Shown one piece after another: positions 5,673-42,362 of a stretch of 64,000 nucleotides of DNA (positions are counted from its first letter, which is position 1; each line of letters starts with the position of its first letter). A program made the translations under genes and the position numbers. The notes under the pieces were generated by a model. The model was not told the DNA's origin and did no database searches. It worked only from the letters and a program-made list of their open reading frames with translations. The stretch lies in assembly GCA_963281155.1 (NCBI GenBank), contig CAUJLY010000003.1:4650001-4714000 (forward strand), written 5' to 3'. This DNA comes from Rhabditophanes sp. KR3021 (lineage: Eukaryota > Nematoda > Chromadorea > Rhabditida > Alloionematidae).

Positions 5673-8600
5673 ATGGGTAATTACAAATCAAGACCGCATT
5701 TATCATGCACTGATGAGCTTAAAAAAAGAATTTCCGAAAGTTATGCTATTGTAAGATCCAAATTAAATGAAGATTCGAAGGCGAGGATATGTTTGTGGAA
5801 TCCATTGCAAATAGCTTGTTATCAGGGAACACTGAAAGAAGTAGAAGATTTATTGGTAGATTTAAAGGGTCTAGAAGATATTTGCCCGTCTAGAGAATTA
5901 TCTTTATTGCATATTTGTGCGATTGGTTCAAGTCCAGTTCAAAATGATAAGATCCAATTAATATTTAGTAAAGCAGAGAGTGAAGACTCCTTAATTCGTC
6001 ATTTACTTTCTAAGAAGACTAAAAATGGCTTCTCAGCTCTTCATTTAGGTGGATCACTTACTCTCCTTTATTTAATATTTATTTTTCTAATTTTAGGTAA
6101 ACAAAACAACAAAATTAAAAAGAAATGGCATTAGAAGATACTTTCGCAAAAGTTATTTAAGAGCAATATCACTGATTCTTTCAACGATGTCAGGATGTTT
6201 AAGATACATCACTTGATTTGATTGTCCTGAATCGTCGACATTAGTTAGCTCACGTCGTATATCAAACATCATAGCGTACTCTAAGCCAAGTGCTTGATTT
6301 ATGCGGAGATCATCAGGATGGATGGCAACTACTTCTCTTTGGTCTTTCCAAATAGCCCTAACTTTTTTTTCTTTGTATCTAGCGGAATGTGGCGTTTCAT
6401 GTCCCGTCTAATTTTGGAGACATGAGCTTGCAATCTTATTTTAATATTACTAGAAACTCCGACATAAAAATTAACTTCTTGAATTCAGTGAAGGATAGTT
6501 GATCCAATTCAACACCAGTAGGAACGTCTAATAAGATGTATGTGGGATTCTTCTGTTTTTCAAGTTTCGCCATCAGATGTTTCCCTAATTTGCCGTCTTT
6601 GTCCAACTTTTGATCCTTTTCAAACTGCTCCTTGCATTTCTTCTTCAATTTATCACAAGCATGAGACTTACAATGGAGTACCAGATTAGGATAAGAATTA
6701 GCTCTGTACTTGCATCCTTTTGCAGGACATTTACTCAGTATTTTCATTGACGTATCATCTCCATGTAATTTAAATCTTGCAAAGGCGTTTTTCCTTCATC
6801 ATGATAGTTGGTTGTACTTCTAGTTAGAGTTGGTGTCACGTCTAAGTTTGGCCTTTTTTAGGTTTTTCATCATAACTGTTGTTATCTTTCCTGAACATTG
6901 CGATTGTAACTGTAAAGAAAAAAATATTTAATGCCATAAAACATCTAAGTCAGACTCGTTTTTCTTAAACGTTGTTTCTAATTAAGACATCATACAAGCT
7001 TGTGTAGTAGTGAAGCAATTAAAAATATAAAATTTATGTGACTTAAATTACCTATTCAATCAAAAAGGTACAATCTAACTCCCCCTATTTCATACAGCTA
7101 TTAAAAGTGGCGATATTGGGGTTATAAGAAAACTGTTGAAATGCGGATTCAATGTAAATGAAATTAATGAAAATGTTCCCCCAGCATTGCATTTAGCTGC
7201 AATTTTTGGTAGTGTAGATATTGTTGAATTACTTATCACAAACGGCGCTAATATTCATTTTGCTGCAGATTTTGTTCAATTTACTCCCTTGCTATGTGCA
7301 ACTTTTTTTAATGATGAAAAAGTAGTTAAAACACTGCTTAAATATGGAGCAGATCCTAATTATTCAGGGGGCATTCGCGACACACCACTACATATCGCTG
7401 CATCTAAAAGCAATTTAGCAATTACAAAACTTTTGATATCTGCTGGAGCCGATCCTTTTTTGGCAGACGACGAAGCAAACCATGCTCTTATATTTTCCGT
7501 AAAATCTGGAAATTTAAATTTGGTAGATGAAATATTGCAAAAAGTCTCACCTTGTCAACAACAAGACTTAATTATGAACTCCAATGTGTATGGGGACACT
7601 TCTTTGCACGTTTCTTGCTACTCAGGGAAGCTAGATATAGCAAAGAAGTTGCTTAAAATAGCCGGAAGTACAATCTTGACAATGGAAAACAATTTTTCTG
7701 AAACTCCACTATTAGCTGCTTGTACTTCAGGCAAAAGCTTAGAATTAATTGCGTTTCTGTTGAGACAGCCCGCAGTTGATGTGAATTATCAAGGTAAGTA
7801 CTCAATTGCCTGGCATTACCTAAATTAAAGAAGCCATAATGAATATAATTACTTTACTAAGTCTAAAAATGAGATTGACTTTGGATACCAAATCATGTAA
7901 AAAGCATATATACTCGGAATATTCAAATAAGACCCTACATTTTAATTATATTACAGGTAAAGACGGGCATACTGCCTTACATTCTGCATCTTGGAATGGT
8001 CATCTGCACATAGTTCAATATTTGCTGGATAACGGGGCAGATCAATTTTTGACTGCTAAAGCGTTTGATGTATCATCATCCTCAACTACTTCCTCAGCTG
8101 TTTTTGCCTTATCCCGCTTAGATTCCTCCAATAGTTTAGCTCATTCGTCCAAATCTTCTTCAATATCAACATTCGAAGATTCTGGGTATATTCCATCCTC
8201 TTCTCAAACTCCTATTATTTGGGCATACGAAAAAGGACATGACCAAATAGTCGCACTGTTAAAATATTATGCCAGCAAAAAATTCGAATCGGATGTTTGC
8301 TCCGAATATTCATCAGGAAGTTCTAGTTATACTCCGCTGCCGTCCCCTATGGGGAGACTAAGGTCCATGACAAAAGAAAAAACTGAAATACTCCAGTTAA
8401 GGTCTCAACTACCAAATGCCTTTCAGTTATATTTATTAGATGTTGAGCTCCTAGAGGCGATTGGGACGTAAGTTTACCTTCACCAATATAAAACATTAAA
8501 TACGATACCAACGACGAAGACATTAAAAAATGGTTTAGTTGAAAGACAAAAAAGTAATTAACAGCGAATTCACCTAAATCCTGCATAAATATTTTGTTTA

Positions 8601-11600
8601 CATAAGCAACACCTACAGATTTTAGGTGCATGGTTTAAGTAATTTCCAGCCAATGCTCTTTCGGCATTAGCTATAGATGAATAAACACCTAATACTTCCC
8701 AGGACAAGTTGCACCGATAGACCTGTTTCCTTGAGCGTAGGTTGATTCTCAACCCCTGTTGCCCATCGTGATTGTCCCACCCTGTTGTCAGATCAGTTTC
8801 CAAGTATGTGGTCAACTTGGTTCCATTTTCTGGGTTGAGGATAAAAGCACAGCAACCATTCGATAAACATAGAATTTTTTTTAGCTTTGACTCATCCATT
8901 TGAAATTGATTGCATGTGTATTTCTTTGTGCACCTTCTGAGATCAAAACTCTTGCATAACGATACGCAGTTGTATAATTTGTCTGGGGCTTATCTCCAAG
9001 TAGCTTTATAAGCAACTTTAAGTCACATAAAATATAAGCACGATATCAAATTTCCACCGATTCAGTCTCTTGAGTAGTATGGGGAGGCCATTCCTGGACA
9101 GTTTCTGGTTTGAAGGACTTAACATGTACGCTACTTTCGCAGAACCTTACACAATGATAAGCATGAATTTGGAGGCTGACTTTAGTTTTGACAATCTTAG
9201 CAACACATTCCGTATTCACTTCATACTTCGAGTAACAGGATCCAGTGGAAATTCAACATTAAAATGACTGTCGGCAGAAAATGTTCATAGACCAAACTCA
9301 ATACTGCTTTCCGTGTTCTTCTTCGTCGAGAATCCGTAACACACATTACGTCATCATCCAAATTAGTTGATTTTTAAAAGATATTATAAAATAGTCAGGA
9401 TTTGGCATTTCTTTATTCTAGTTGTGGCATTGTATGTCTGCCCTTCACAATTGACGAAAAGTCATGGTAAATTAGGAATCTCTTCATAGCTGAAACAAAT
9501 TATTCGTTTTTAAAACACTCGATGTGTATCAATGTATTTATCTCTGACTTCCTTCAAATCAGCAAAATCTATAACCACTTCCCAAGCATCGGAATTAATG
9601 TGATGGCAATTCAATGTATCACAAGTTAAGAACAAATTTAGATCATCTCCTTCAAAGTTTAGGCGCTCGTGAGCAAAATGTTCTGAGGTTAATACTCTTC
9701 TATTGACGAATGTTTCTTCCAAAATGAGTAGCAACGAATCAATTACATCCACCGGATTTTGAGACAGGACACCTAAAATAATTACACTATTTACACGCTG
9801 TGATTTGTTTTAAACTTACTAAACCCATGTTGACAATCAATAGACTCAACAATCGCTTTCCCAGCCAACGTATTTGCACTAGTTTTAAAATTGAACTTAT
9901 CTAAACATACGAGTATCCGCCGACCATTCTTTCTCCAGGCACATTTGATAATGGAAATTTGTAATTGACGTAGAAGTCAACACCACTTCGTATTCCTATT
10001 AGGATAAAAAGTTGATTCATTCGAACAGGTTTTCTTTATATAATATAATAAGCAAAATGTTTCGAGGTAAAATGTAAAAAAATTATTTATATTTGGTTGA
10101 TTAATATTAAGTGTGATAGTGGATCGTTTGGGAAAGTTTACAAAGGATTGCTGAAGGGCCATCCTGTTGCCATTAAGAAATATAAAGCAATATCTTTTGG
10201 AGCAAAAACGGAAGTTGATATGTTTTGTAGGGAAGTTACAATCCTGCATAAAATGAAACATCCTAATATCGTTGGATTTATTGGAGCTTGCTTAGACGAT
10301 CCAAGTCAATTTGCAATTGTAACTGAGTTTGTTGCTGGAGGATCTTTGTTTTGTTTGTTGCATAAGGAAAAAAGAATATTTGAAATGCCTATAAAATTGA
10401 GTATTGGCTTAGATATAGCTAAAGGGATGTGCTATTTACATGAGAAAACATTAAATCCAGTCCTTCATAGGGATCTCAATAGTCATAACATTCTGCTTCA
10501 CGATAATGGAAGAGCAGTAATTGCGGACTTTGGTGAATCTCGCTTTGCAACTCAACGTGACGATGACAGCATGACAAAACAGCCTGGTGTAAGTTGTTTT
10601 AAAGATATAAAATAAATTAATTTGGGCTTTAGTGTGAACTATTTACATCTCTATTTGCATGTCATTGACGTCATTACTTATTTATACAATTTACTGCTTC
10701 CTTTTTATATTTACCTACTTTTATTGCTTCGCCCATGCTTCCTTATTAAAATAATCATTTCTACAAATTAGAATAATTTTTTTATAGAATTTACGATGGA
10801 TGGCTCCTGAAATATTTACTCAATCATGCCGATATGACCAAAAAGTAGATGTATTTTCATATGCACTCGTACTTTGGGAAACCCACTCTTCAGAGTTACC
10901 TTTTTCACACTTGAAACCTGCAGCTGCGGCAGCTGAAATGGCATATAAAAGAACTCGGCCAGCACTTCCAGCATACCCAACAAATAACTTCCCGGAACAT
11001 ATAGTATCACTCATTTCGATGGCATGGAATCAAGAACCCACTCAAAGACCATCATTCCCAGAAATTGTAAGTATGATAGAAAAACATGTTGACAAAGATG
11101 CAAAGAACAACTTTAGTATTGGGAATATTTCATCAGCTTTCGAAGGATTTGGATTAAATAATGATATGATCTCCGAAATGGATTCAATAAAGAGTGTTTG
11201 TCAGTTAAGAACACAGTGGGAAAATCGGATGAGATGCAAAAAATCTTCTTTATCCGGTACCAGCACATCACAAAATTTAGAAATTGAAAGCGATAATCAT
11301 AATCAAGTTCATTTAAATAATGCATCTTCAAAGACGATTGAGGCATTAAGATTAAGATTAGACTCAAATGGATATGTTTCGCAGGCAGCTAAGGCAATTT
11401 CGGCTGCCAAAAACGCTTCGGCTTTACGGGATAGTTTTATTTTGGCTCGATCAGATTCCGTAGCAAAGAGACAAACAAACTTTGCTACTAAGGAAGATGA
11501 TTACATTCACTCCGAATTTGTAATTTGCTGTCCGACTAAGACAGGAAGTCAAGAAACATTGAAATATGAGTCTGCATCTAATTCAGATGTTAACACGTGA
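5673..11600 (+). CDS. TNNI3K: TNNI3K-type ankyrin-repeat protein kinase
   Basis: Five exons: 5673-6048, 7098-7793, 7957-8467, 10120-10588 and 10788-11600. All GT-AG phases agree, giving about 954 residues. The N-terminus MGNYKSRP is the same as that of vertebrate TNNI3K, including a Gly2 that could be myristoylated. Ankyrin repeats fill roughly residues 80-450 (for example [18 protein letters not shown]). The kinase domain starts near 525: glycine loop GSFGKVYKG, lysine motif VAIKKY, catalytic loop HRDLNSHN near 644, DFG in ADFGESRF, and MAPEIF. The HRDLNSHN loop and DFGESRF are typical of the tyrosine-kinase-like group to which TNNI3K belongs. The last 160 residues are a Ser-rich tail, as in the vertebrate protein. 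All key catalytic residues are present, so it should be active. In mammals this is a cardiac kinase; its role in worms is unknown to me. Introns 1 and 3 carry antisense foreign coding sequence, listed separately. Confidence 0.95.
6160..6900 (-). pseudogene. Intronic LEM-3-like GIY-YIG element, copy A (antisense in TNNI3K intron 1)
   Basis: On the minus strand an open frame of 103 codons (6747-6436) encodes a C2H2-like finger ([12 protein letters not shown], then HCKSH) and a YILLDV segment, as at the start of the LEM-3/ANKLE1 nuclease domain. One frame shift later it continues [20 protein letters not shown], the YIG-type strand with its Arg and His. After a second shift in an A-run it continues [13 protein letters not shown] and [14 protein letters not shown] (the Glu is the expected metal ligand), then LTN, ending at about 6160. 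A likely start lies near 6900. Two shifts make it a probable pseudogene. The host gene is on the other strand. The domain match is strong by motif order; the family's mobility is inference. Confidence 0.7.
8570..9958 (-). pseudogene. Antisense coding-like block in TNNI3K intron 3, unidentified
   Basis: The minus strand holds a chain of coding-like segments. At 9958-9843 the frame reads [13 protein letters not shown] and ends at a clean donor (A/GTAAGT). A short intron with a TTTTAG acceptor near 9772 leads in frame into an open frame ending at 9510. Further segments lie at about 9260-9060 ([19 protein letters not shown]), 9050-8885 and 8888-8570 (the last with the Cys-rich end CRCCLCKQ). The pieces are in different frames and not all joins look spliceable, so the gene is probably decayed. 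I do not recognise the family. A weak resemblance of [13 protein letters not shown] to the end of the GIY-YIG copies may be chance. Like those copies it is antisense to its host. Confidence 0.4.
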
Positions 11601-11717
11601 AAATACTTTCTCTCATTTAAAGACAAAGTTCGAATATGATAGTACGGTTGTATAAAGATAATTTATAGTCATGCATAACATATATAAACTAATTAACATT
11701 AATATATAAATTTTAAA

Positions 11718-11795
11718 CTTTATATAAACTTATTAACATTTATATAAACTAATTAACTTTATATAAGCTTATTGACATTTATATAAACTAATTAC
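11718..11795. repeat. 39-bp tandem duplication downstream of TNNI3K
   Basis: Two adjacent 39-bp A/T-only-like units (11718-11756, 11757-11795) differing at a few positions, inside a wider AT-rich stretch (about 11680-11830) made of variants of tatataaactaatta. It lies between the convergent TNNI3K gene and the next minus-strand gene. Confidence 0.8.
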
Positions 11796-11846
11796 TTTTT
11801 ATAAATTTATTCATATTCCTTCTTTTATATTTTTGTATTTGTGTTA

Positions 11847-13167
11847 TTAAAATGAAATCTTAAGTTGAAGATCATGCTTCAGAACTTTGTTCATTCTCTT
11901 ATGGTTCGCTACTGCAGGGTATTGGCGGGCAATCTCTTTCACAGTGTCTTCAAATGTTTCGGGCATAAAGATGTGTTTATTAACGATGCCCTGAGACTTT
12001 TTGAGAGCATAATTGTATTGAATAAGAGCTTCGAAAAAATTATTTTGAATATCCTGATAATCATCATGAAATCTTGGTGTAATTTCAAGCCAGAGTGCAC
12101 TTACTGAAACGGCCAAAAAATATTTGCACGGAGACAGAACGCAATTAGAGACGTCATTAAAATCATCTAAAAAATTGTTATTTATGATATGGCTAATTAT
12201 TGTTGTTAAAGAAGGCTAATTGAGTACAAACTAACTATACTTAGAGTAGGCTTTTCGGGTCTTTTTAGACTTACCACTAGTTTCTTTAATTTTAATGAGA
12301 ATGTCAAAAAGTTCGCTGCATTCAATACGAACATCCTCAAGCAAAGCATTTACCAATTCGTTAGCGACCGTTCTATCAGAATCTTCCACTTTGTAATTAT
12401 CAGCTCCTTTCCGTAATTTAGTGTAAAATTCATATAATTGGTCAATCTTCTTGACGTAAACATCCATTATTAAACTATTCTCATGCTTTGATAATAATCC
12501 ATCTGTAGCTATCAAAAGTTGACAGATAACGTCAATACAATCACCTATATTTCCCTTCTTCAAATCTTTTTTTATTCGGCAATAAAGATTCTTTCGCAAA
12601 CTGAAACCCATCTTTCCATTATTAAGGGCCAACTTTTTGACACTGACATCAATTAAGTCTTTACATGACTTTAGATATTCATCGCAATTCTCAACCTTCT
12701 CAGTTATCAAATTATGTAATAAACGACTGTTCTCAATATTTGACTGAATTGGGAGAAAGGTTTCTGGCAGCCTTGTTCTGGGAATAGCCGGATTTATATT
12801 CATACTCACACTTTCAATATTTGTTACATACTCTGTTAGTTGTTTTCGGGATTCAAACAGCGTCGTCTGAACAATTTGTAAAGTCAATTAGCTAATGGTA
12901 AAAACAAACCTGATAATCAGCTAACAAAATATCAACATTAGCTTTTAATTGATTTGACAACATTTCCACATATGAATTCATATTAGATAACTCTCCGAAT
13001 CTATCAGCACAAATTGATGTCATATGTTTAACCATAGTAGCATGCGATAGACAATCTCCATCCTCATTAATGCTCATCAAAGACACCTTTTCTTCTGCTT
13101 TTTTCTTGTTTTTCATTAACTTGTTTCGGATTAACTTTTTGTAAACTTTTGAAGTTTGGGAACCCAT
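11847..13167 (-). CDS. Helical, possibly BAR-like protein with a myristoylation-type N-terminus
   Basis: Three exons on the minus strand, 13167-12910, 12866-12275 and 12103-11847, with matching phases, giving about 368 residues. It starts MGSQTSK followed by a Lys-rich stretch, the form of an N-myristoylation plus basic membrane-binding signal. The rest is almost entirely predicted helix with heptad-like Leu/Ile spacing. The C-terminal part contains ITPRFHDDYQDIQNNFFEAL, which resembles the last helices of BAR-type proteins; that is a weak analogy. There are no enzymatic motifs. I would expect a peripheral membrane, curvature-associated or scaffold protein, but the family was not identified. 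The 5' neighbour region (13168-14478) is free of genes. Confidence 0.75.
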
Positions 13168-17441: not shown

Positions 17442-17538
17442 TTTAATACAATTCCATTGATCGAACATTTTTTAGCAGGTAAGAGCAATAAATTCGAGAA
17501 TAATTTGTAAGGCTGTGTAGAAGATGCTATACCTATTT

Positions 17539-18159: not shown

Positions 18160-21100
18160 TTATACTTCAGTCGTAAGATCTTCATGGTCCTCTAATATTT
18201 TAACTCTTACTATTGGAAAGAAACTGATAGCTTCTTTTCGAACTGGTGAACGTTTATGAGATTTGATTTTAAATCTTAATAAACTAAAAAACTCCTTCCT
18301 TATCGGGGCATTCATAATAATGACAATGGGTGCATTTGTCGAGCAAAGAATGTCGTTTGCAATGAACCAAATTGTTCGGTACATCCAAGGATCTGTTGGG
18401 GGTGCTAAAGCCGATAATAATGAGAATATTCCCAACGCCAAATAGCATACAAATATTAAGAATCCTGATGTTGCTAATCGTAAAGCTACGCCCTTTAAAT
18501 AGATGATTAATATAACGAAAGCATATTTAATAATATAAATTTGTGAGTTAATTATGCTTTAAGGAGACAGTGGTTCATAAAATCTTTTTGTTTTACATTC
18601 AAATTTATTTCACTTATAAAGGTGTTTTATGTCTCACTCAAGTTGATATTTTGATCTTGAAGCGACAATTACCAAATACGGGAAGTCAAGAACGACCTCG
18701 CAAAATCAGCAATAGTTATGCAAGTACCCGTTAATAAGAAGTCCAACAATAAGAGAAGATGTCAGTTATCAACCACAATAATCAAATTTGCAGTGATGGA
18801 AGTGTCGAGTCAATCGTCGCAAAGAGTTTCAACTAATAAATTGTGTGGGATTGAGGAGCCAACGGAAGTGGACGAAACTGGATTGACTCTACAGATAGAG
18901 TGTATGTTGATAGTGGAGCATTTTAAAGATGACTTGAGGGGAAATGCGGTTGAGATCTCTGAGAGTTATAATGACGCCAGCAATAGAGTCACATAATTTT
19001 CTTGTTAAAAGAATTAAAGAATATGGCGTGGGCTTATCCCTTTATAGTAAAACGTTTTTCGAAAATCATATAGTAGTCTTTCTTAAACACAAGAAGTTTG
19101 GAAAATCGACAATCTACGGATCTACATCAGTTTCTAGGCATCATGGGGTGATTAAGCGATATTTCAAAGAGGAGCCGTTTAGGAACCTGGTTGATGAAAA
19201 GTTGGAAGAATGGATAAACTTGTTTCTTATCAAAGTTCTTGTGAAACCTGTGCGAGGAGAGAAAAATTACAGGGATGAAATAGCAAGATATGAAATCCTT
19301 TCCCAAGTAGGAAGATGTACAAGAATACCTGTTGGATCAAACTTCAATGATGACTATGAGAAAGTTAAAGATTTAGGCAACCTCAACATGTTGTCAAATC
19401 TGTTGTTCTATGAAGGCAATACTCTATCTTATTTTGCCTCAAATCAAAAAATAATTAATGCCAGCACCCCTTACAGTGAAACAGACTACAGAAGCCGACT
19501 CAAGCTAAAGTTAGTTGTAGATATTGGACAAGATGAAGAATTTGGGGAGTTCGTTATGAACGTATTGAGACAGAAGAAAGATGGAAGAACGGAGGACATT
19601 ACTTACCCTCTCACATGTCCTTATTGTGAACGTGGCTGTTATTCTTCCATTCATTGGCTTAAGAGATCGTGTAGAGGAACAAGAACGACTGCTGCTAAGT
19701 TGAATGAAGATAAGGAATTTATTGGTAAAAGATTCTGGGAAGAATCAGTAAGTTTAATTAATCAAATAAGTTATTTCTTTTCAGGCATTGGATAATTCTG
19801 CTAAATGTAGTCATATTTATCTTGCAAGAGATATTGAAAGGGTAACTAAATACACCGGTGTCTCTGCACCACCAGAACAACAAAAAAATGAAGGGCCTGT
19901 CACAAGATTCTAAAAGCATCGTAAAGATGTTTGTCAGGCTATGGAAAATATTAGTCCAATGACAAGAAAGGAAACGGTGTTTGCTTAAAAGAATGGTTTC
20001 ATTGAAATGATCTATTCACTGGACAAGTTTACAATGGATGTTGCTTTTGCAATTGAGCATGCATTGAACTACCTCCTTACAACTTTGTCCAACTGCTCAA
20101 CTAACCAGGCCATGCTATTTGTTGCCCTACTCTATCCTGAGACACTAAGAAAGTTAGGAGAGTATTTGTATGAACATTTACTCAAGGATCATGGTGTCTA
20201 TCAAATGAAGCCAATCCTTGATCCAAACACTTAACCAAAGAATTTTAAAGGATTGGAATTCAATAGCTGCAAAGCAACTTTCTATGATGTCATTCAGTTA
20301 ACATACCATTAAAGAAAAGAGTTTGTGCGAAGTTAAGAGCTGAAATTGATGAGACTATCAAAGTAGAAAGACAGTTATATGATGTTGCTGCTACATCAGT
20401 GTTTTTAATGCTTTTAAGAATGGAATTGTTTATGCCGGTGTAGCAGGCAAGGTTAGAACAAGACTTCTCAATTGCATTTCAAGTAGCAGACTTTACTTCG
20501 GAGATTCATCTTCTTGAATGAAAAAGAAACGAGAATTATGGAGATTTCGGACATAAAAGACAAATTGTTGCCTTTTACTGTGATGAGTTGACTGCAAATG
20601 AAGCTCTAGCATTTGAGTATGACATCACATTAAACCTTCAGAATGTGATAAGCAACATGGATGCGTCAGAGCAGTCCAACGATGTCGTGTTTAGAAGCAT
20701 CCCGAAACAGTAAAAAGAATTTCTGAATTAGCCCTAGACAAAATGTATTTATCTTCTAAAGATATTTCTTAATAATATTCCGCGAATTTAATATTTTTTG
20801 TCTCTTTTATAAAAGTTTTGATCGCATGTCATTTTGTATACATTTTCGATTGTTTTTTATTTACCTAAAAGCAAAATTAAAATTAAACTAATATTAGTTC
20901 CTTACCTGAGGTTTCTTTATAATTTTGTGCAGTTTTATCTGATAGAATATGCTGCCATAAAGAATTGAAACAAATGCATTTATTATGCCTCCGTCTAAAA
21001 TAGACATCCCGAGAAAATACACACGATGAAATGTATGATCGGAGGCATAAAATAAAACTCCTCCAGTATGGTTGTTTTTCACCACTTTGAATTCAGCAAA

Positions 21101-29923: not shown

Positions 29924-29995
29924 CATTATTTATTCTTTGATTGTAATGTCATTTATATGTTTAAATGTGACAAAATAAATTTTTAAATAGTATTT

Positions 29996-32900
29996 TCAAT
30001 CTTCTGTGCCTGATTTAAGCACAGCTGATTCAACAAAAAAACGACGGAAATCTTGAAGATGATCCCTAGCACTTTCGATCAGTTTTAATCCATCGTGTTT
30101 TTCAGCCATTTCATTGAAAAACTTGATAACATCTGTAAAGTCCATTGAATTCTCCAATATGATGTATCTATAAGTTGTCAAAAGAGAAAGGGCAAAGAAT
30201 AATTGGAAATGGTTTGACAAAGTTAGATTTGATGCCCAAATAGTTTCCCACAGACTGTAAACTTCTTCGTACGGCAATTCACGTTTAAAATCAAGCAAAA
30301 ACCAGCGGTAACTGAAGTATAAGTGAGTAAAATCTCCTTCAGCCATTATTGTTTGGAATAGTTCTGGGTCAGTGATTTGGATTAAATGCCGGAAGTTGGC
30401 AAAGTTTATATCCATACCAATTTCTTGGGGAAAGTTTAAATGCATCCTTTCCATTAATTTACTGAATATTTCTAATACAATAACTTCTAGAATAAAAATA
30501 TCAATTAAACAATTATTTGGATTAAAAGAGGCAATTACCATCTTCGAAAATGACTAATAAGGGTGCAGCAATATCACACATTCCTTGAACATATCCTTCA
30601 TTCAGGTTTCTCCAAACATATGTACACATAACCCTTTTTAATTTATCTAAGTTGGATTGGCTCTTGAAAAATGTATGATTTCTATCGCATCTTTCTACAT
30701 CTTTTTCAACTCTATGTAAATTGGCTCCAAAGTTGTTGATAAGAGCTTCTTCTTCTTCATTAGTTGCATTATGACAATTGTCCTCAAACACTGTATCTTT
30801 TTTTGCGTCATAATCATCATTAAATAGTTCAGAAAAGACTGATCCATCATTTTTGAAACTACTAACAGATTGAGTTTCTGAATCACAACATTCAGAGTTA
30901 GTTGTAGCTGCGGATGTATGTTTCAATCTTGCTGCCAAAAAAGCTTCCTTGTCCCTCTGAACAACCACACTTTCAATTTCCTGCCACGAGTCAACATGTT
31001 TGTTATATTTGTTGTTAATTTCTTGTATAACATCTTCAATCTCGTCTTCCCATTCAATTATTTGTAATAAATATGGCCATGCTTTGGCACGTACAGATTG
31101 GGATATACCATCGTAATATACTCGCTTTAAAAATTGGGACCAAAGATTTTTGTTTTGTTTATTTTGCCTAATGTAATTAAAGTATTCTTCATCAACTACT
31201 CCTCTCACCAGACTATCCTTTTGAAAGCACTCAATGGGTTCTGGATTGATCACACCCGATAAATGATTCCTAACAGTTTTAACCTGTTTACAGTGATTTT
31301 ATTAATATATTTAAATGTGTTTTTTAATCATTTTTTGGAGTAACATATCATTCGCCTCCCAGGCAAATGATTATACTATAGTATAACTATTAGCCCCCAG
31401 GCGAATGATAATGCTATAGTATAATCATTCGCCCTATTTTTATTTTATAAGGCTAATGATTATACTATAGCATAATCATTTGCCTGGGCAGGCTAATGGT
31501 AACTAAAGTAACCATTCGCCCTATAAATAATTTTTATGGTCTATATTTAAGTGAAATATAATTGCTTTAAACAAATTCCTAATCGTTTTGACAATTTAAC
31601 CCTCATTCAATGAAATTTAATTAACGGTTTATAAAAAATGAACATAAAAAATATTTTTAAACTATCAGAAATTCAAAAGAAACAGATGTACTGATTAACC
31701 CTACTAACATAGAACTAATTTCGCCTACTTCTAAGAACTCGTGCATTTAAAGAAGGCTTAAAGACAACCTTTTCCACAATACTTTCAACTTCTGATTCCT
31801 CCTGTTTAAGGGTATCATTTTCTTTTTCATCTTCACTATTTCTTTCTTCGTCATCTTGGAGCTCGCTTACATATTTTTGAAAATTTTCAGGAATTAAATA
31901 TTCACTGATTGTATTTAAGTATGTGTTTACATTGAGAAAGTTGTTATCACTAAATTCTTTTTGTAATAAAGCAATTTTTTCCTCTCTATCCTTTGACTTT
32001 TTAACTTGCTTGGAAATGGCAAATTCAGGTGAGTGTTTAAATTTATTCAATTTGTAAATTGTAAGCCGGACATCCTCATTTGCAGCTTTCAATAAATTCA
32101 GACATTTCAAGTAAGTACCATGGTGTGTAGCTAATGGATTAGTTTTAAGCCATCTATTGAATGATTCACATGAGTTAGTGCTTTTAACACGTTGTTGAAA
32201 CTTGCATAATTTGGTTGCATGCTTTTCATTCTTAAACCAATTTTTATCAACATAGTTGATCCATTTGGTTAGCTGGTTTATTTCAAAAGGAGTAAAATCT
32301 TCATTGGCTGTCATAATCATCTTATTTTTAATGATAGTCCATTGTTGAATCATTTGCCCGACTGGCACGTGGGGGAGAGCAATAACCATACGAAACTTCT
32401 TATAAAAATCTGCAGACACGAGACTTCTATCGTCATTTCCATTAAAAGATGTTAACAAATGCTTAAGCCCAAGCTGATTCAATTTTTTTACCAAATTTTG
32501 GGCGTAGTGGAAATAGCAGTGTTTATGTAAAGTAGGATAATGTTTTTCAATAATTTTTATTGCAGCAGGTTCTTTATCAGTCATAAATACCTCTGGAAGT
32601 TCTTCACTAATTCCGAAACGTTGTAAGCACTTTTTAATTTCATTAAAAACGAAATCATAATCTTCGGTCTTACGGTGCTTCATCAAAGCATAAAATGCTG
32701 GTATAAATGTATTTCTCATTTCCCCTTCTTTATTTTCAATAATTTGAAACATAACGACGTAGAGTTGGGTGTATTTGTCAGGGGCCACAAAGAAAGTTCC
32801 ATCAGCAAGTCTTAATTTTGATTTGGCATACAATTCGAGTACATCTCTTGAACCAAAAATAACAATTGAATCCCCATCTTTTCCAACAACACGGAATGAC

Positions 32901-35900
32901 ATAGGTAACTGCTTATCATCTAAATAACCACATTCGTAAACTTCCTCGGCGTAATCATTATTTTCATTTTTTTTTTCGTTTGATCTAGATGAAGCAACTC
33001 TAAGATACCTTCCCTTATCTTTATACTGTCCTAACTTTATCTTCGAATCTGCTGTACCGAGTTCAAGCCCATTGCATATGGTATCGACATTTTTAATCCC
33101 AATGGCATGTGCTATACGAGGCTTAATGAGGGGATTTGTGGCGTCACGGCAAACACGCTTGTATTCATTATCGCCTATTTTTTCTTTGAATGTTATTGGC
33201 AAGCAACCATCAAAATGAACACCTTCTTGGCGAACCAAATTATATCCTTTCATCTTTAATAGTGGAATATTCGATTCGGGTTGCTTCTTCTTTTTACAAA
33301 TTGAGCGACACTCTTTGCAGTACATAGTGGTTGTTGTTGTTGCATCTGGAGACAATTCAGTTCCTCTTCTAAAATAATTTGTATAAATTTAGTGAATATA
33401 CGAAAATTTGTATATTGTATATTTAGTATTTGAATATTATTTATGTATAATTTGCTTGAATTATTGTATTTATAATATGTGCTATTTTATTATTATATCA
33501 TTTTATCTAGGATCCTCATTTGTACCACTTTGCCTATTTTAAATCTACTTCATTTTAGTTTAGCTCCTTTCAGCTCTCATCCCAAAATCGTAAGTAGTGT
33601 ATATATTATTATTGGCATTAGATGACCACGATTTTTTTGTAGATTAATAAAGATCCTTTTGAATCCTGTTGTGTAACCCCTACTAGAAGCTTATTCAGGC
33701 TTTGAAACCAGTCAATTTTACTTTTTACTATTTATAGGCAGATAAAAAACATACTTCTTGGTAAACACATATCCCAATGGGTTAGCATAATTCGTTTGAT
33801 CAGGAACGTATAAGAAAACATCCTTACAAAACTTTTCAGTTTTCATTCCAACTATAAATTGAGACTTAAATTGGACCTCCGAGTCAACATTTTTATAAGC
33901 TTCTTGTGCAAATAAAAGAAATTCCTCCTTTGTTCTTGTTAAAGGAACTGATGCAGGAACAGTTGGTAAAGAATGGTGAGATGGAATGTTTTGACTTAAA
34001 ATATTGCTTGAGCTTGGCTGTGGAAGAAGTGTCTCTCGAACTTGCTCCAACAATGAAGGATTATTCCAAAGAGCTTCTAATATTTGACTGTCGGTAAAAG
34101 ATGACATTTTAAAAGCAACCAACCACGATAATAGCAATTAAAGAAATGATTTTAAAATTAAAGTATAAGTGTAGAAGGGGATTCTTATTATGAATTATTA
34201 TACTATGAGGGATATAGATAGCCTCAATTACGCCTTAAAGATAAAAGTGTAACGATGACATTAACCACTTAAGGTATCTTATTTTATTAAATTGAATAGA
34301 CTTCAATTACGCTTTAGAATAAAAGTGCGACGTTAGAATAAAACACTGGAGGTGCACTTATTTAATTAATTTTTAGAGTATTAAAACACAGTCATCAACC
34401 TTAGAAATAACCGCTCATATTCGAACCAAATAATTGAAACATTTGATGATTTTCTTTATAAGGGCGAATGATTATATTATAGTATTATCATCTGCCTGGG
34501 CGAATTTTTTACTTAAAATAATGATTGGCCTGGGCGAATGATAATGCTATAGTATAATCATTCGCCTGGGAGGCCAATGATTATTTTTTTGACATATTAG
34601 CCTCCCAGGCGAGTGATAATACTATAGTATAATTATTCGCCCTACCCAGGCGAGTGATAATATACCCTTTAATATTTGCTGTAAGGCCTTTTAAATTTAG
34701 ATATTAGTTAAAATTATGACATAATAAACTTTTCCCAATGCTGTTTTATAATTACTTAAAATTAAAGGAAGTTGGAAATTTATATTAACAGTATCATTAT
34801 CCACACATATAAATGAAGATTATATTTTTACATCTTTGTAGTGAAGTGCATTTGGAAAATAAAAAGCATGATAACTGCAGAATTTCAGTATTAATTGTGA
34901 TAGAATTAATTAATGTATCTACAATATCCATAAAAACAACTGTTATGTGCAATTGTCAAAAGCACCTGAAGAAACTATTGGTCTTTCTAGAAGAGATAAA
35001 CAAAAAAACTGAAGGCAGCAAGAAAAATAAAAAAGTATTTTGGTGGTGCGGAATTAAATATGAGTCAAAATAATCATTATTTGGTTGTGTATGGTTCAGC
35101 AAGCAATAATCTTGGACAAATCATTAAGCAGCACAAAAACGGATGTACCTTAAGGAGCAATCTGTTATGCGGGGAATCTGAGAGAGACCAAATGACACTG
35201 TAGCAAGTTAAATTAGAGAAAGGCGATCTATTTGACAGCAAAGAGAATAGAATTAATCAAGTTAAAAATGCTGGTTTAGAGATGATTGTCGTGATGTTAC
35301 CTGCTAGTTCAAAAGAGATTGCTGAAAATCTTGAATATATTCTCATGGAACACTACAAATGGCAAATTACCAACTGTGATCACGGAAAGTGCTCCATGCA
35401 GGAAACTTACCTTTTTAACACAAAAAATGCTATGCAATTGGAGATATCTTATCTAGAATGATCTTTGATGGAAAACTATTGCTTAAACTAAATCTTAATT
35501 TCTTCCTTCACTGTATTTTTAGTTGTTTTTTACAATAAACTTTTCCAATTGTCTCCCTTATTTTACCTAAAACAAAAAAGGTTAATTAAAGTCACTAAGG
35601 TTGACACCGACCTGTTTACAATGATTGAACCATCCTGAAAATGCTCTAGAAAGAATCTTTTGCTTCATAAAGGAATACGCATTATTTATATTAGTATTCA
35701 TGTTTTCGTTTATTGAGTCTGAATCGGTTGAACAGTTTAGTTTTTTGATGTTGAAAATCGCTGGAGCTGATTTAGGACCTTCATGATTGTTATTAGTGGC
35801 AAATCCACCTTCTTCGGCCTTCTTGCCACTCTCATCAAACTTTTTTCGTCTAGCGTAAGAAGTTGTTTCCACTCTAAAGACATAATCATTCACGGGAAGA

Positions 35901-38900
35901 CCTTCTGTTTCACTTGAAGACAAAGACCCTAGACTCAATCTAATTGCGACAGTACTGATTTTTTTCTTAAGTTTGGGCAATGTTTTTTCAAATGAATTTT
36001 TGTCATTTCCTAAAAGAGGATTAATTTTTGCATATAAGTGTTTTGCTAAGAAAAGATGTTTTGGAAAAAAAGTCTTCTATGACTGTCTAATGGCATTAGA
36101 TTTTTTAAAATTATAATTGCAATTACAAAATATGGGAGCATTTGACGGATAAATTCAAGAAGGCCATTGCTCGAAAAACGTCTCAGAAGAAGAACTCAAG
36201 CTACGCATTGCTAGACGTTTCTGTTGTTGTTGAATTGGATCAACTCTCTTTCACTTAATTCAAGAAGCTCATCTTTTATGTAGAAGTATCATGCACAATA
36301 TCAAAAAAAGATTATGCCTCCAAAACTAGACGGGTATGGCTTGTTATATTCCATTAGGTCCAAAAGAAAAGTTATTGCCATCCATCTTGATGATCTCCAC
36401 ACAAATTAAGCTCTTGGTATCGAGTATTCTACCATATTCGACATGCGACGTGAACTAACTAATGTCGACAATTCTGGACAGTCAAATAAGCTATGTATGT
36501 ATTTAAAGTATCCTGACATTGTCAAAAGAATTAGGGATCCTGCTTTAAAACAAATTCTCTCCCAAATATCTTCTAATGTGAATTCCTTTTAATTTTAGTA
36601 TAATAAATTTTGATTCTTCCTTTAACTTTACCTGAAATAAAAAGAACATTAGATAAGAAGTGGAGCAATAGACCGACCTGACAATGGAGGATTCAACTTT
36701 TGATATGGATCAATTGCTCCTTCCAAAGCTGCCATGAAATTAACCAAGTACATGCTCGAACAAAAAGCAAAACTAGCTAGTTGTGTCCCATCGATATCAA
36801 CAAAATCTAGGGTAAATAAACTCGATTCATCATTATGATGAACATGAATGTAAGAAATAGTTTTCATATGAAAGGATATAATATGCTTAGCCATGCATAA
36901 AATGTCCATAGGTGTGGCAGTGAATGGGAATGCCGTGTTTGTATTATGTTTGGACGCTTTAGGCCTGAAAGTGACGTTTGTTGTTACCTATCTTATCCAT
37001 TTACTTACGTCAGATTCATTAATTCGTTTGGAGTCCACTTAACAATTACATTTCCTTGACTTTCTTGTAGTAATGACAAGTATCCTTAATTTTATGTAAA
37101 TATTACTCATTATATCATTTTGGTTAACAAACTGTATGGTAATTTATTTATGTGTCTATATTAGGATAAAATGTGACGTATATTAACCATTCTAGTTATT
37201 TTAGTGCCAAACGATCGCCTCGACTAGGTGTTTATTCTAACAATGGAAGAAAAGAGACCTAACGAAAAAAAGAAAGGTCGCAACTATCTCAAATTAAGAT
37301 TTGGATGGCCTAGTAGAATTAGTAAAAACTACAACCATAGAGGCTGTAGAAGTAAAGAAAACTCCCAATAATAGTAAGAGTTTAACATCTGGTAAAAATG
37401 AAAAGGATGCAGTTGGTGGTTAGTTTCAATTAATATTAGTGTATCTTATTTACTTTAGTAAACTCGTCTTCAATTTTGCAGTTAAATTGAGTTATGTCCC
37501 TAATATAAAAGAAGGTTTCATAAGTTGTTCAAAGGTGATAAAAAGTTAACCATCATCAAGAAGACTTATGCCTCTAAAAAGATTGCCGAAAACATTGAAT
37601 ACACCATGATTAGTGCTGTTCGTGATAAGATTACTAATTACAATTTAGGCGAGCTTCCTACAGTCTGTTAGCTACATGGATCCAGAGAAAAACAGACAAG
37701 TTGCTAAAATGATCTTGAATGACTCTTCTGCATGTAAATCTCTTGAATATGTTACAAAGCACTGGTTCTTTTTATATTTTTGATTAATAAAATTGTTTTT
37801 ATCTGTTTCAGCTCTTCTTTAAACTAACTGAAATAAGTTGTAATTAGATGAAGTCATGAATGGGAAAAACTCACCCCTTCATCATCCGTTTCCCATCGAA
37901 ATTAGAAATCGAAACATTGTTCTTACCATAAATTAGGATGGACTTATTATTTTGATGCAATGTGTAGACGAACTCTTTGCCAGATGGAGATGAGGATGTC
38001 AAAAATGAATCTGCACTTTTTATAACACTCCCACGTGTCCTTATCATCTAATAAAAAAGTTATTAATAAAAATAGTAGTTTACTTTTACATGGCAAAGTA
38101 TTTACAAAAATTGTATTGATAGTACTATATGTACTGATAAATATATATTTATTTATGTTTATGTATATTTAGGCGGAAATATTTGATAAAAATTGTTTTC
38201 CAGCTCTCAAATTAACGAAAAACATGTTGAAATAAGCATAAGATAATATTAAAATATCCTTTATGAAATCTTTTGTGGTCGTGCTATATTCTGATATCAT
38301 AATGAACTGTTAAAAAATGCAATTTAAAAATAATAAAGGAATGAATATGGGATTGAGAAGTTTTTGTAGCTTGCTGAGGAGATTATAAGAGAATTAATGG
38401 GATATCTTTGATATATCTACAACCTTACTTGTTTAGGAATGTAAAGTCATGTTGAGGATTATAGATATTTTGTCATGTTGCCATAAGAATAAATTATATG
38501 TAGATAAAAGGGAATGAATAAATATAAACATGGTATATGTCGATGAAAGCACAAAAAAGAAAGAATTGGCACGGATAAAAGGTCCTATATATATGGCATG
38601 TTACGTCAAGGAGACTAATTTTTATGTACATTTTAATTTTCCACAAAATGGTATAATAACTTTGTACTTATTGACTTTAGGCTTTAAAACATGGCTGCTA
38701 TTTGATTCTATTATTTTAAATTGAAAAATAAATAAAAGGGTGATATGCATTATATGGCGTGTATGAGAGTGCAAAAGTGTTCCTATAATACACAACTACT
38801 CATTAAGTGAGTAAATGCTTCATAGCATTTATCTACTTTACCAACAAATGCTATGACGTTTTGTGAAGAATAGCATCAAAAAAAGAAACACTTACCGATA

Positions 38901-39096: not shown

Positions 39097-40624
39097 ATTC
39101 TAGATATCTTTTGAGAAGGAAAATCTAGAAAAGAATAGTAATTAGAATTCCTAATTAGGTATAATTATTTTTAACTTCCGCACATAAACAACAAAATTGT
39201 ATAAGAGAATCAAAATTGGATAAGAGAATCAAAATTGGATAAACGAACCAAAATTAGATGGCATATTAGTTTTGAGATAAATAAAAACAAAAGGACAGAG
39301 GTTGTACTTTAATAAAAATTATGAACAACATGGAATGAATTGTCGTTGTAAATGGATATAATAGAGTCCAATGATTGCCATTGCAAATATTATACACATG
39401 CCCTCGAAATAATTGGCTTCCAGGGGAGGAATAAAGATTGGTATGTCCAATTTACATTTTTTAGATTATGTGTAAAAAATACATTTCACTTAATATTTTA
39501 ATTACAGCTTGAAGCCAATTTTTTGATTAAACATTAAAAATGTTGATAAGAGCTTTTGAATGATACAAAATATAACCCTGATTAGCTTAAAATAAAGACA
39601 AATTAGTATATTTTGATAACACTACTCCAAGCATTTGAACCCATTTGTGTGGTATAAGGACAAATAATATAGTGGCAATGTATATTAAAGCATGGGACGT
39701 TAAAGAATGAGGAAAATGTTTTTTATCCTCTTTGGGGGTGCATTTAAATGTGGGCTATTCCTTTTTTTGAAATTCCAAAGAGTAAACAAGTTCAAAAGAT
39801 AATTAATAAATAAACAATGCCTATAATAGTTTTAAAATTACTGAGAATATTATACCATCTTAAATGTATAGTGAAAAGAATCAGCTTTAATGTTCTCACA
39901 ACTGCGTTGAGGTTGCTGTAAGGTTCTCAGGCCATAAAATGACGTAAACACACTACGGCAATACAAATGATATTGCTGAGTTATCGGTTAAATTATTGGC
40001 AGAATTATTGACATAATTATTTGTTTTTCCAATAAATTTGTATCAAAATGTATTCAAAACAACGTTATTTGCCATGATATTCTTGCAGAAGACGTACATT
40101 ATTAAATATCTAATTAAAGAGACAATTTATTAACAGAAGAAATACGCACAAAAAAGAATTGTGTAGTAATAATTTGATGTATATATTAAAATGTTGCTAC
40201 AACAACTATATGTATCTTGTTTCAGGCCTACGGCTTTTCATGAATTTGTATTGAAATTGAATTTGAATTAAAGGGGGCTCAGGGCGATATGTCATAAAAT
40301 GTTAGCCCACATAGTCTGAAATATAATATTTTGTCTGTTTAATTTCTCTTAGTTTAAGTTAATTTTTTAGTTATGTAGTATTCAAAACATTTATTGTTCA
40401 CACACAAAACGATAGAAACATATACAAGGCTTATGATAATAAAATTGGTAATTTAGAAAAAAATAATTAAATAAACCCGAAAGTTGATGAGAATTGGCAA
40501 CAATTTAAAAATTAATTGTTAATAATTAAAATTGTTTAAGGAACAACAAAGATTGTCGTCCTTTCAATTGTTTTGAAAAGAATTTGAGATGATTGGTAGG
40601 AGAATTGATAGTTTGACCTCACAA
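39097..40624. other. Intergenic region, SGSM start to CHIC stop
   Basis: 1.5 kb, AT-rich. I looked for an SGSM RUN domain on the minus strand and found no frame that could encode it. A three-copy 19-bp tandem repeat lies at 39192-39260. Presumed promoter of SGSM and 3' UTR of CHIC. Confidence 0.5.
39192..39260. repeat. 19-bp tandem repeat, three copies plus a partial
   Basis: Units of caaaattggataagagaat at 39192-39210, 39211-39229 and 39230-39248, then a partial copy. One or a few substitutions between copies. Upstream of the SGSM start on the minus strand. Confidence 0.85.
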
Positions 40625-42362
40625 TTAATCAGGGATTAGTAATGGAATTTTCGGAATAGCTTCTAGGAGCAAAACATATTCGCTTAAATGAGAACTGCTG
40701 TCTAGGGGCTGTTTTTCAAGTTTCCAATGAAGACCTAGCTTGTGGTACAGCCGACTGTTTTCAAGTTCGAGAGTCTTTTGAAGTGAGTTTATTGTCTAAA
40801 ATGAGTTTGATTAAAAGATGCTAATTGAATGAAATATACTCTTCGGTTTAAACAAATAACAGGCCAAAGTGAGCATCCAATTGTACAACAGCAGAAAACC
40901 AAACCACAAAGAAACCATCTGAAATTCCAGGGTACAGATCGTTTCAAAACTTTATTAATCATCCGTAATGTTGCCTGTAAGTTCATATTGGTATTAGCGT
41001 ATTCATTATATTTTTAAATTTAAGTATTTATCAGTCGCAGAAGTTTTATACAAGCATTACAGTGACACCTCATACATTTGAAACTTAGCTGAAAGCTATT
41101 CACATTTATGATCGAATTATGCTTTATTATTATCATTTGTTTTTTAGTGTATAACATCGCCTCAATTTGGTGTTTTAACTATCATGGCTAAAAACGGGGT
41201 ATTGTTTATGATTTAAGTGATACACTAGCAAGTCTGGAAGAAAGGTCTATAACTAAAACACCTAGAAATGAAGATAGTTTGCCTGTTGTGAGGAGTACAT
41301 CTTTTAGAGAAAATGGTAAATTATGTTATCATTAATCTGTTTTAGATCAACCTGAAAGTGCCTCTTCCGTCACTCAACCACAACAAATTAAAGAAGGTAT
41401 AGAAAATAGAACGGAGATTTATGTAAAAATTATCAAAGCTTGTTTAATTGTCTATTAGAAATCCGCTACTAATTTATCGAAAGGTGTATTCTCTCAAATC
41501 AAAATGATGGAAAAATTCTTTATGGAAGAATTACTTACTAAAAGAGAAGATAGTTGCATTTTGAAAAAAGTCATCAAGAGCAAAGATAAGGAAAAAAGAC
41601 TTCCATGTTTACTTAATGCTGAACCCGAAAAAACGGTGAAAGTTGGTCTGTAGATAATGTAAGGGATACAATTAAATACATTGGCAAGATTGTACAATTT
41701 GGAAAAAGAATGACTATGCATAGTACAGACTTTAAATTGAGTTTAATCTAAAGAAGATGTTTGACAGAAAGGAGGACTTCATTAATGCTGTCATTCGGGA
41801 TGAGTCTTATGGAAATAATGAAATCACAGTCTTGGGGTACCAATCAGAGGAAGTGATTTTAAACATAGAAGCCATCCTGACCAGAGCATTCAGACCTCAA
41901 ATCACAAACTCCGATTCTCGTAGCCATTCTTTTGAAGATGCCCTCAAAATAAGCTCGGGACTTAATGGACAAGTAGCTAATCTCATTATCAACGAGTTTG
42001 TTGATACTTCTGATTTTTCGGATGTGGTATTTTATAAATAATACGTTAATAACATGTCTAATTATAATACAACACATCCTAGTATGTTTTAATTTAAATA
42101 GACTCTTACCTCTAATTCTTCAGGTGCAACCTTGCCCGTCAAGTTAAGCGGAAATTCTTCTTCATCAAAATGGGAGTTGAGACCGAATCTAAAAATAGTT
42201 GTATGGTTAGTCTCAATTAATCATGGAATCAACTAACATCGTGACATTCCCGTGCCCTTTAATCAAAACAGGTTTTATCTTCGGAAGTTCAGCTTTGTAA
42301 TCAGGCAGCATTTCAATACTGTCCCCATCCTCATTCAACACGTAAATTTCTTCCTCTTCCAT
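40625..42362 (-). CDS. CHIC2: CHIC1/CHIC2 family cysteine-rich hydrophobic protein
   Basis: Four minus-strand exons: 42362-42238, 42188-42110, 40974-40840 and 40795-40625, 169 residues against 165 in human CHIC2. An acidic start (MEEEEIYVLNED) is followed by KGHGNVTIFGLNSHFDEEEF and LTGKVAPEEL. The hallmark hydrophobic Cys string is WFLCGLVFCCCTIGCSLWPV. It ends ENSRLYHKLGLHW and SEYVLLLEAIPKIPLLIPD. CHIC proteins are palmitoylated on the Cys string and associate with the plasma membrane and vesicles; they are thought to act in vesicle trafficking. Every conserved block is present. Introns 1 and 3 are about 45-50 bp, whereas intron 2 is 1.1 kb because it contains an antisense GIY-YIG copy. 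The symbol covers the CHIC1/2 pair, which cannot be separated here. Confidence 0.93.
41150..42041 (+). pseudogene. Intronic LEM-3-like GIY-YIG element, copy F (antisense in CHIC intron 2)
   Basis: It begins with the leader shared with copy E. A spliced beginning reads SDTLASLEERSITKTPRNED and joins over a 40-bp intron (GTAAAT to TTTTAG, about 41315-41353) to QPESASSVTQPQQIKEG. Later frames give SKGVFSQIKMMEKFFMEEL, then DTIKYIGKIVQFGKRMTMH (41665-41725), the YIG strand with Arg and His. A 94-codon frame (41757-42041) has NEITVLGYQSEEVILNIEAI and RPQITNSDSR, carrying the Glu and TN. At least two frame changes and stops separate the parts. It nearly fills the intron, ending 68 bp before CHIC exon 2. 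Confidence 0.65.

Follow-up and report, generated by a model that had tools for sequence, protein, structure and literature searches.

How do several copies of what looks like one nuclease gene come to lie in the introns of unrelated nematode genes? The question is raised by a 64-kb stretch of the Rhabditophanes sp. KR3021 genome (hereafter the window), in which a sequence-only reading had recognized six diverged copies, A to F, of a dispersed family of LEM-3/ANKLE1-type GIY-YIG nuclease genes located inside introns. The origin of new spliceosomal introns is a long-standing question, and an enzyme gene inside an intron, in an animal and in many copies, makes nuclease-driven intron gain directly testable.

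Two family profiles, for which 38 and 41 copies from the genome outside the window were used, recover copies A (E 6e-42), B (2e-16) and D (4e-32) where they were originally placed, strand included, and these three are firmly established as family members. Copies C (0.11) and E (0.23) score about as well as the best match in one shuffled window (0.27), and copy F was not found by the profiles. The proposed single family of six thus holds for A, B and D, whereas C and F fall into different families and E matches weakly. The family of A, B and D, here called A-type, is real and large: with copy A and one better-preserved copy as queries, GIY-YIG proteins of this type match at least 191 distinct places in the 44.8-Mb genome, which amounts to some two hundred or more introns in one animal genome. 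Mobility was to be judged by hundreds of copies with shared ends; the A-type family comes close to this, with at least 191 places and with left and right ends shared in the copies read. The loci examined below were the best-scoring matches and not a random sample.

The A-type copies keep the motif order YILLD ... FYVG ... R ... H ... E[YA] ... LTN and, N-terminal of it, the zinc-finger-like segment, both as originally described. In the P1 alignment, which counts copy A twice, the first Tyr is kept in 36/37 sequences, the second Tyr in 31/37, Arg in 31/39, His in 30/38, Glu in 36/41 and Asn in 39/42, and the Cys/His positions of the finger-like segment in 20/21 (C29), 23/26 (H42) and 26/26 (C48). 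The LEM-3 assignment comes from the best nuclease gene read, that of L027, whose ORF reaches 28.2 bits against the LEM-3 profile PF22945 (cut-off 27) and 13.8 bits, below its LEM-3 score, against the general GIY-YIG profile. The ORFs of three other copies (L013, L014 and L017) stay under the PF22945 cut-off with 16.1, 18.6 and 20.0 bits, and those of copies B and F have no match to it. Genome-wide, 16 of 38 places score above the cut-off, and the top three of these are not element genes. Strong LEM-3-like domains are found elsewhere in the genome, outside the elements (167, 140 and 125 bits). The likeness to LEM-3/ANKLE1 thus consists of the PF22945 match in one copy and of the two Tyr, Arg, His, Glu and Asn residues kept in most; the difference lies in the ankyrin and LEM domains, absent from the six element ORFs scanned, and the element nuclease is therefore not an ANKLE1 orthologue. 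Foldseek gave no significant match in PDB, and the A2 profile found no GIY-YIG entry among the sequences of solved structures.

The nuclease has been under purifying selection in the past, with median dN/dS values of 0.39 and 0.43 and divergences of 0.224, 0.166 and 0.341 at codon positions 1, 2 and 3; recent copies of the A group show near-neutral change. The element genes range from fresh to decayed copies, and even in L027 an open C-terminal half of 232 aa is preceded by stops and frame changes.

The statement that the copies are inside introns proved correct and too weak. Judged from the sequence, the element is the whole predicted intron wherever its ends could be read. By eye, 12 of 14 distinct recognisable left ends carry GT and one GC, the exception being L053, which has no clear donor, and all seven distinct right ends carry AG. 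Similarity among the copies (14 left and 7 right ends) stops at these splice sites, short of the exons. Since the ends coincide with the splice sites, the elements seem to create introns instead of settling in existing ones. Ordinary GIY-YIG elements, such as remnants of Penelope-like elements, might nevertheless have inserted into pre-existing introns; Penelope-like elements have both GIY-YIG endonucleases and short target-site duplications, according to the available text of PMC3846280. We regard this as very improbable given the position of the ends, the preference of L027 for the LEM-3 profile over the general one, and the lack of any reverse transcriptase, as had been noted for the window, within 19 kb of any of the 191 loci (nearest RVT_1 match 19.3 kb off, 0/191 loci with one within 5 kb). 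No Rfam model matched the window at gathering score, and so nothing points to a self-splicing intron of group I or group II. The SL1 leader had no match at one mismatch or fewer, and no telomere repeat was seen by eye in the first 130 nt of contig starts C1, C3 and C6.

The layout of the elements relative to their hosts, missed in the sequence-only reading, is mostly antisense. Host coding evidence favours exons on the strand opposite to the nuclease in 42 of 46 loci, sense layout scoring clearly better at two (L054 and L055). Of 23 junctions chosen by hand, 22 have a host frame that, with the element removed, stays open over 12 residues or more to either side; some of the junctions fall within a Walker A, Hsp70 or ClpX motif. 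A Pfam alignment spans the junction in 8 of 10 such host proteins. The host genes are unrelated to each other. In the Hsp70 case the element splits the gene, and 17 of 27 other Hsp70-like matches are uninterrupted at that site, these empty sites being paralogues of 31-55% identity. Internally deleted derivatives also occur as introns, of 218 bp (L085) and 953 bp (L086).

Many copies begin with a common left-end module, a mini-intron followed by a second donor, which was found 33 times on the host strand vs. once on the other among 53 loci; four of the six module-like motifs in the window sit at copies A, B, C and D. The left ends vary, and four copies begin 0-18 nt past the inner donor. Exact loss of the mini-intron would be a sign of an RNA intermediate and is seen in L016 only; because L024, L064 and L075 begin some nucleotides further inward, this idea was dropped. 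The features of the window are collected in Table 1.

Table 1. Features of the six copies in the window (positions of the window; intron boundaries are predicted from sequence).
Feature	Position	Strand	Remarks
Copy A, complete intron	6049..7097	+	1049 bp, read as a whole mobile element; host is an ankyrin-repeat/kinase gene on +
Copy A, nuclease remnant	6138-6756	-	Profile E 6e-42
Copy A, left-end module	6049..6096	+	48-nt mini-intron GT..TTTTAG, then second donor GTAAAC at 6097
Copy B, intron	18493..20905	- (host strand)	2413 bp; module inner donor at 20864
Copy B, nuclease	20404-20760 (GIY-YIG matches); 18938-19795 (open frame upstream)	+	Profile match
Copy C, intron	31284..35611	- (host strand)	4328 bp; module inner donor at 35566; MULE nested inside
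Copy C, ORF remnant	~34813-35470	+	GIY-YIG by motif alone
Direct repeat, 3' end of intron C	31282..31298	+	ACCTGTTTACAGTGATT; family D10
Direct repeat, exon end before intron C	35610..35626	+	16/17 identical to 31282..31298; spacing equals intron length
MULE nested in intron C	31347..34662	-	Transposase ORF 31715-33388, PF10551 E 7e-11; palindromic terminal repeats
Copy D, intron	36046..36677	- (host strand)	~632 bp; module inner donor at 36631
Copy D, truncated GIY-YIG	36121-36589	+	Profile match
Copy E, intron	36965..37874	- (host strand)	910 bp; decayed module, inner donor lost
Copy E, doubtful nuclease remnant	37459-37644	+	Profile E 0.23, level of shuffled sequence
Copy F, intron	41426..42109	- (host strand)	Donor 42109; acceptor not pinned down
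Copy F, ORF	41736-42041	+	GIY-YIG by motif alone

Copy A has ends common to the copies at C3:4449 kb, 4591 kb and 4622 kb, and its host protein is in frame, an Ank_2 alignment beginning three residues before the junction and continuing through it. By eye, the host of copy B is 7TM receptor-like and that of copy C TBC-domain-like. The acceptor of copy B is the third of three ranked by the codon model and was picked for continuity of the receptor-like protein. For copy C the second-ranked acceptor was taken, the first-ranked one falling in the ORF of the MULE, and it was picked in the knowledge that the local sequence repeats the exon end. Copy D has a possible alternative acceptor at 36083. The membership of copy E, suggested by motif resemblance and position, is weak, and copy F shares sequence from 42085 to approximately 41426 with a copy at C3:4224 kb.

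Target-site duplications are a feature of introners. A minority of the copies has a direct repeat of 10-17 bp, once at the exon end and once at the intron end. In 24 pairs with hand-curated boundaries (acceptor 36083 for copy D) the repeat scores sum to 48.5, with 16.6 +/- 5.1 expected and 0 of 20000 permutations as high; without copy C, and with acceptor 36046 for copy D, the sum is 37.0 (expected 15.8 +/- 4.8; 1 of 20000). Once L024 and L027 are left out along with copy C, 440 of 20000 permutations score as high and the signal becomes weak. With boundaries set automatically, p was 0.008 (26 introns); a cruder test, in which the acceptor could be chosen freely, showed no significance (p 0.15, 29 loci). 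Strong repeats occur in 3 of the 24 pairs, and 19 pairs lie under the weak threshold of 4, a score reached by 8 of 552 mismatched pairs. Hence the duplications are significant as a set under hand-curated boundaries, but strong in three pairs only, and since the strong signal comes from curated boundaries and leans on these three pairs, we call the repeat a minority feature. A fixed footprint of 8 or 9 bp was rejected because the strong repeats vary from 10 to 17 bp. The repeats pair an exon end with an intron end and not two points inside an intron, which again argues against insertion into pre-existing introns.

The repeats also bear on the possibility that the introns are non-autonomous DNA transposons moved by a transposase encoded elsewhere, the GIY-YIG gene being cargo or a helper in processing of intermediates. 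Introners are described as derived from transposable elements, and transposase-encoding elements that would mobilise them were sought (PMC9860276, available text); transposases are indeed present in this genome, e.g., in the MULE nested in intron C. We nevertheless consider this explanation unlikely. No terminal inverted repeats of 12 nt or more were found at the ends of four copies, the length of the repeats in the three strong cases varies, unlike a fixed transposase footprint, and selection kept the nuclease gene through the spread of the family. The MULE itself is not part of the nuclease element and was rejected as its mover: it has its own palindromic ends, and the measured introns (643 to 1869 bp) are too small to hold it.

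Copies C and F are members of dispersed families of their own, both large. For an 85-aa piece of copy C, 493 candidates at first look came down to 150 genomic places; for the 101-aa ORF of copy F, 294 candidates came down to 151, with one match at 97% identity. Antisense layout was favoured by host coding evidence in all eight C-/F-type loci, two of them with low scores, and the module is present in 2 of 8. C-type and F-type loci lie near A-type loci in 6/143 and 6/140 cases. Pfam found no GIY-YIG match in nine C-/F-type ORFs, and the A-type profile gave weak matches, the best 0.008 in the register of a C-type ORF and the others 0.02-0.06, with one host-strand match in the same scan reaching 0.05. 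That these introns are proven carriers of GIY-YIG nucleases is thus unsupported by Pfam and the family profile. As their GIY-YIG nature is a matter of motifs only, we split the combined count of 453 places into 191 of A-type and about 260 of C-/F-type.

Taken together, the A-type elements (copies A, B and D with their relatives) are, we think, probably autonomous introners, that is, mobile elements that become an intron on insertion and carry a LEM-3-type GIY-YIG gene opposite to their splice signals. We propose that the nuclease, rather than another enzyme, drives insertion. An intact copy would yield the nuclease, which may cleave further genes at sites like proto-splice sites (in many cases AG|G); repair would then copy the element into the break, sometimes leaving the 10-17-bp repeat. 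Splicing from the host strand at the predicted GT and AG would take the insert out exactly and so leave the host protein unharmed, and antisense copies would survive because that strand carries the splice sites. In the new copy the nuclease gene would then decay. Some elements may still be active, and the C- and F-type introns may act in the same way. On the broadest reading, self-mobilising spliceosomal introns would have colonised an animal genome, their own LEM-3-derived nuclease opening proto-splice sites in unrelated genes. Selfish homing would then be one of the main sources of new introns in this lineage, accounting for some two hundred of them, and for well over four hundred should the C- and F-type introns be divergent members of the same kind; on this our opinion is evenly balanced.

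To our knowledge, most known introners are short and lack an enzyme gene, and their mover is therefore usually unknown. Like the A-type elements, introners, or introner-like elements, occur as sets of similar introns spread over unrelated genes, and the available text of PMC9860276 has a transposase as the mobilising enzyme sought; the long A-type copies hold instead their own nuclease gene or its remnant, and the ends of the four copies tested, without inverted repeats, form a further contrast. Among the open-licence papers listed in literature searches, we saw none on introners with a nuclease gene in an animal, and a study of nematode intron gains has, in its available part, no introner finding in nematodes (PMC9169325). 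Penelope-like elements (PMC3846280, available text) resemble the A-type elements in being dispersed and carrying a GIY-YIG nuclease; the A-type elements differ in having no reverse transcriptase nearby. The left-end module resembles the stwintrons (twin introns) of Hypoxylaceae. As far as the available text describes (PMC8469720), these hold a short intron inside an external one, at its donor or close to it, and likewise form families of similar copies. Whereas the short intron of the (D1,2) type splits the donor, that of the A-type module is followed immediately by a complete second donor (AG|GTAA), and a putative two-step splicing can be envisaged. The sequence-only reading knew of no described element with this make-up, which no longer holds: spliceosomal GT-AG introns of mirusviruses, named shintrons, were reported in 2025 to contain genes of GIY-YIG, HNH, Vsr-like or PD-(D/E)XK endonucleases (PMC12768974). 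Likened by the available description, they are the nearest published kin of the A-type elements, both being spliceosomal introns that hold a homing-type endonuclease gene. Shintrons reside in virus genomes with a preference for target genes that suggests homing into homologous genes (PMC12768974), whereas the A-type elements occupy some two hundred places in unrelated hosts of an animal nuclear genome, with a LEM-3-type nuclease in antisense. The best reading of their sequences is that they may also be named spliceosomal homing introns, in an animal, which joins two so far separate ideas, cellular introners and the homing spliceosomal introns of viruses.

Matches to the protein of copy A, one of the six nuclease-like copies of the window, occur at 150 or more places (the best 150 of 227 candidates) in the 44.8-Mb assembly of six contigs (C1 to C6). 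The window itself covers C3:4650001-4714000. P0001, the ORF of the better-preserved copy L027, gave at least 157 matches (the best 150 of 590 candidates scored). Merging the two lists gives at least 191 distinct places of the A-type (copies A, B, D and their kin), a lower bound with six rows of the copy A list left out. A piece of copy C matched at least 150 places (best 150 of 493 candidates) and the copy F ORF at least 151 (among 294 candidates); all four lists together comprise at least 453. The A-type density is 2.3 to 8.1 per Mb on C1 to C5 vs. 0.3 per Mb on C6 (among the 191 listed), and that of all 453 listed places 7.5–16.9 vs. 1.1 per Mb. The largest contig, C6 (11.2 Mb), holds 3 of the 191 A-type loci and 12 of the 453 places, against 113 expected by length; this scarcity might be explained if C6 is a sex chromosome or poor in introns. 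On C1 to C3 the places of the 453 set are concentrated toward the contig middle. The host genes met (proteins read by eye, ten of them by Pfam) are consistent with an animal.

The sequence-only reading had placed the copies in introns, which holds, and in the copies read the element ends are themselves predicted splice sites, the element making up the entire intron. Copy A and its relatives L010, L011 and L012 are 90–96% alike across 684–1056 bp and dissimilar beyond, and their common sequence starts at the 5' splice site and stops, where the right end is reached, at the 3' splice site. Among 14 distinct copies from a left-end search, read by eye, the junction is GT in 12 and GC in one, L053 being the single copy with no clear donor; all seven distinct copies from the right-end search, also read by eye, terminate in AG. 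A genome-wide scan with a partial left-end pattern found 13 places, and the reversed pattern none. Host coding sequence lies opposite the nuclease strand according to a codon model, for which 17 exons of the window were the training set: of 46 loci (68 minus 22 overlapping; L001, probably an ordinary Slx1-like gene, included), 42 gave the better score with the antisense layout; L054 and L055 clearly favored sense. Antisense also scored higher in all eight loci related to copies C and F (C-/F-type), with low scores for L087 and L091. The acceptors of B and C were selected against the model's top score. Across hand-chosen junctions, 22 of 23 loci keep an open host frame of 12 or more residues on either side, and Pfam alignments span the junction in eight of ten such proteins (E1-E2 ATPase, Hsp70, dynein AAA_5, BCS1 AAA, ClpX AAA_2, FYVE, GDSL and, by three residues on one side, ankyrin); Cdc20 matches in two separate stretches and the DHHC alignment ends ahead of the junction. 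L027 and L075, of one subfamily, occupy the same Walker A spot in unrelated ATPases (GPSGSG|K and GPPGSG|K), which may indicate that P-loop codons offer a preferred sequence.

In many copies the first part is a left module, a complete short intron (mostly 41–48 nt, 3' end TTT(T/C)AG) followed directly by a second donor, GTAA. Across 53 loci (168 kb) the host strand bears the module's motif 33 times (30 loci) and the nuclease strand once; of six occurrences in the 64-kb window, four are at A, B, C and D. Four module-less copies start 0–18 nt beyond the inner donor, and two of eight C-/F-type loci have the module. Stwintrons, as described in PMC8469720, are a candidate analogue should it be spliced in two steps.

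Exon ends resemble intron ends at 24 curated junctions (19 loci and copies A to E), with a summed similarity of 48.5 vs. 16.6 ± 5.1 permuted (0/20000 as high). Three strong repeat pairs (C, 15–17 bp; L024 and L027, 10 bp each) were equalled by none of 552 mismatched pairs; two further pairs reach a weak threshold of 4, also met by 8/552. The acceptor of C was picked with the repeat in view, and the sum is 37.0 vs. 15.8 ± 4.8 (1/20000) without C and 21.5 vs. 12.5 ± 4.0 (440/20000) without all three; automatic tests were weaker than curated ones (p 0.008 and 0.15). One reading of these repeats is that insertion duplicated the target and that the duplicates either have since worn away in most copies or were not made every time. 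In L016 the element interrupts an Hsp70 gene, and 17 of 27 other matches to that protein (31–55% identity) continue in one frame past the insertion point (residue 93) to at least residue 101, two of them with an internal stop. Intron gain would be favored at this site, since most paralogues lack the intron.

Median dN/dS is 0.39 (321 unsaturated pairs, 98% below 1) and 0.43 (230 pairs, all below 1), with pairs non-independent, copy A entered twice and the protein-based alignment biased toward conserved stretches. In DNA-based alignments (318 pairs), codon positions 1, 2 and 3 diverge by 0.224, 0.166 and 0.341. The low ratios and the third-position excess argue that the nuclease stayed functional while the family spread. 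Among five recent pairs, four A-group ratios are 0.9 to 1.6, as expected under decay, and the fifth, L056/L058, has 0.08, inconsistent with post-insertion decay. The latter are near-identical gene copies on two contigs that share an introner in identical position; their nuclease differences are almost all silent (pN 0.003, pS 0.04), odd for a decayed copy. Deletion derivatives also occur, namely L085, a 218-bp intron, and L086, 953 bp with most of the nuclease deleted.

The dispersed GIY-YIG family of six window copies proposed earlier stands genome-wide for the A-type, with A, B and D firm by the family profile and E weak; for C and F, neither Pfam nor the profile confirmed membership. Nine C-/F-type ORFs had no GIY-YIG match in Pfam, one giving a weak zinc-finger match below cut-off, and the profile gave 0.008, 0.02, 0.05 and 0.06 in register on the nuclease strand and one match at 0.05 on the host strand. 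Copy C is firm as an intron through its module, repeat and family matches, and not firm as a GIY-YIG gene; the acceptor of F is not pinned. Two other large families, each with at least about 140 distinct places, supply the short ORFs that lie antisense in the C-/F-type introns.

The absence of a reverse transcriptase, seen earlier, agrees with the nearest RVT_1 match to the 191 listed A-type loci lying 19.3 kb away. A search of four copies for terminal inverted repeats came up empty, and Rfam had no match in the window. Elsewhere the genome has three strong LEM-3-like domains; those on C1 and C6 are similar across most of their length, so that a recent duplication to near the C6 end is likely. 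Two more loci form a separate GIY-YIG group distinct from the intron family.

Locations of individual features (window positions unless a contig is named)
Feature	Location	Details
MULE-type transposon nested in intron C	31347-34662	557-aa transposase ORF, palindromic terminal repeats
C-/F-type antisense ORF	34813-35470	
C-/F-type antisense ORF	41736-42041	
C-/F-type antisense ORF	C3:5633 kb	
C-/F-type antisense ORF	C4:4049 kb	
C-/F-type antisense ORF	C2:5187 kb	
Relative of copy F	C3:4224 kb	97%
L056	C3:7498 kb	
L058	C2:6826 kb	
L076, LEM-3-like	C2:2186518	167 bits
L077, LEM-3-like	C1:2498294	140 bits
L078, LEM-3-like	C6:4280	125 bits
L079, separate GIY-YIG group	C6:74913	open frame 246 aa
L080, separate GIY-YIG group	C5:516310	open frame 379 aa

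Taken together, the A-type copies are quite probably autonomous introners, a claim limited to this type because C and F were not confirmed as GIY-YIG by Pfam or the family profile. The nearest published likeness found is the shintrons of mirusviruses, GT-AG introns that encode a GIY-YIG or HNH nuclease, an association previously unobserved according to their authors (PMC12768974); introners are the other parent concept (PMC9860276). The A-type introns stand apart by residing in an animal nucleus, in target genes unrelated to one another, and by the type of their nuclease and its antisense placement.
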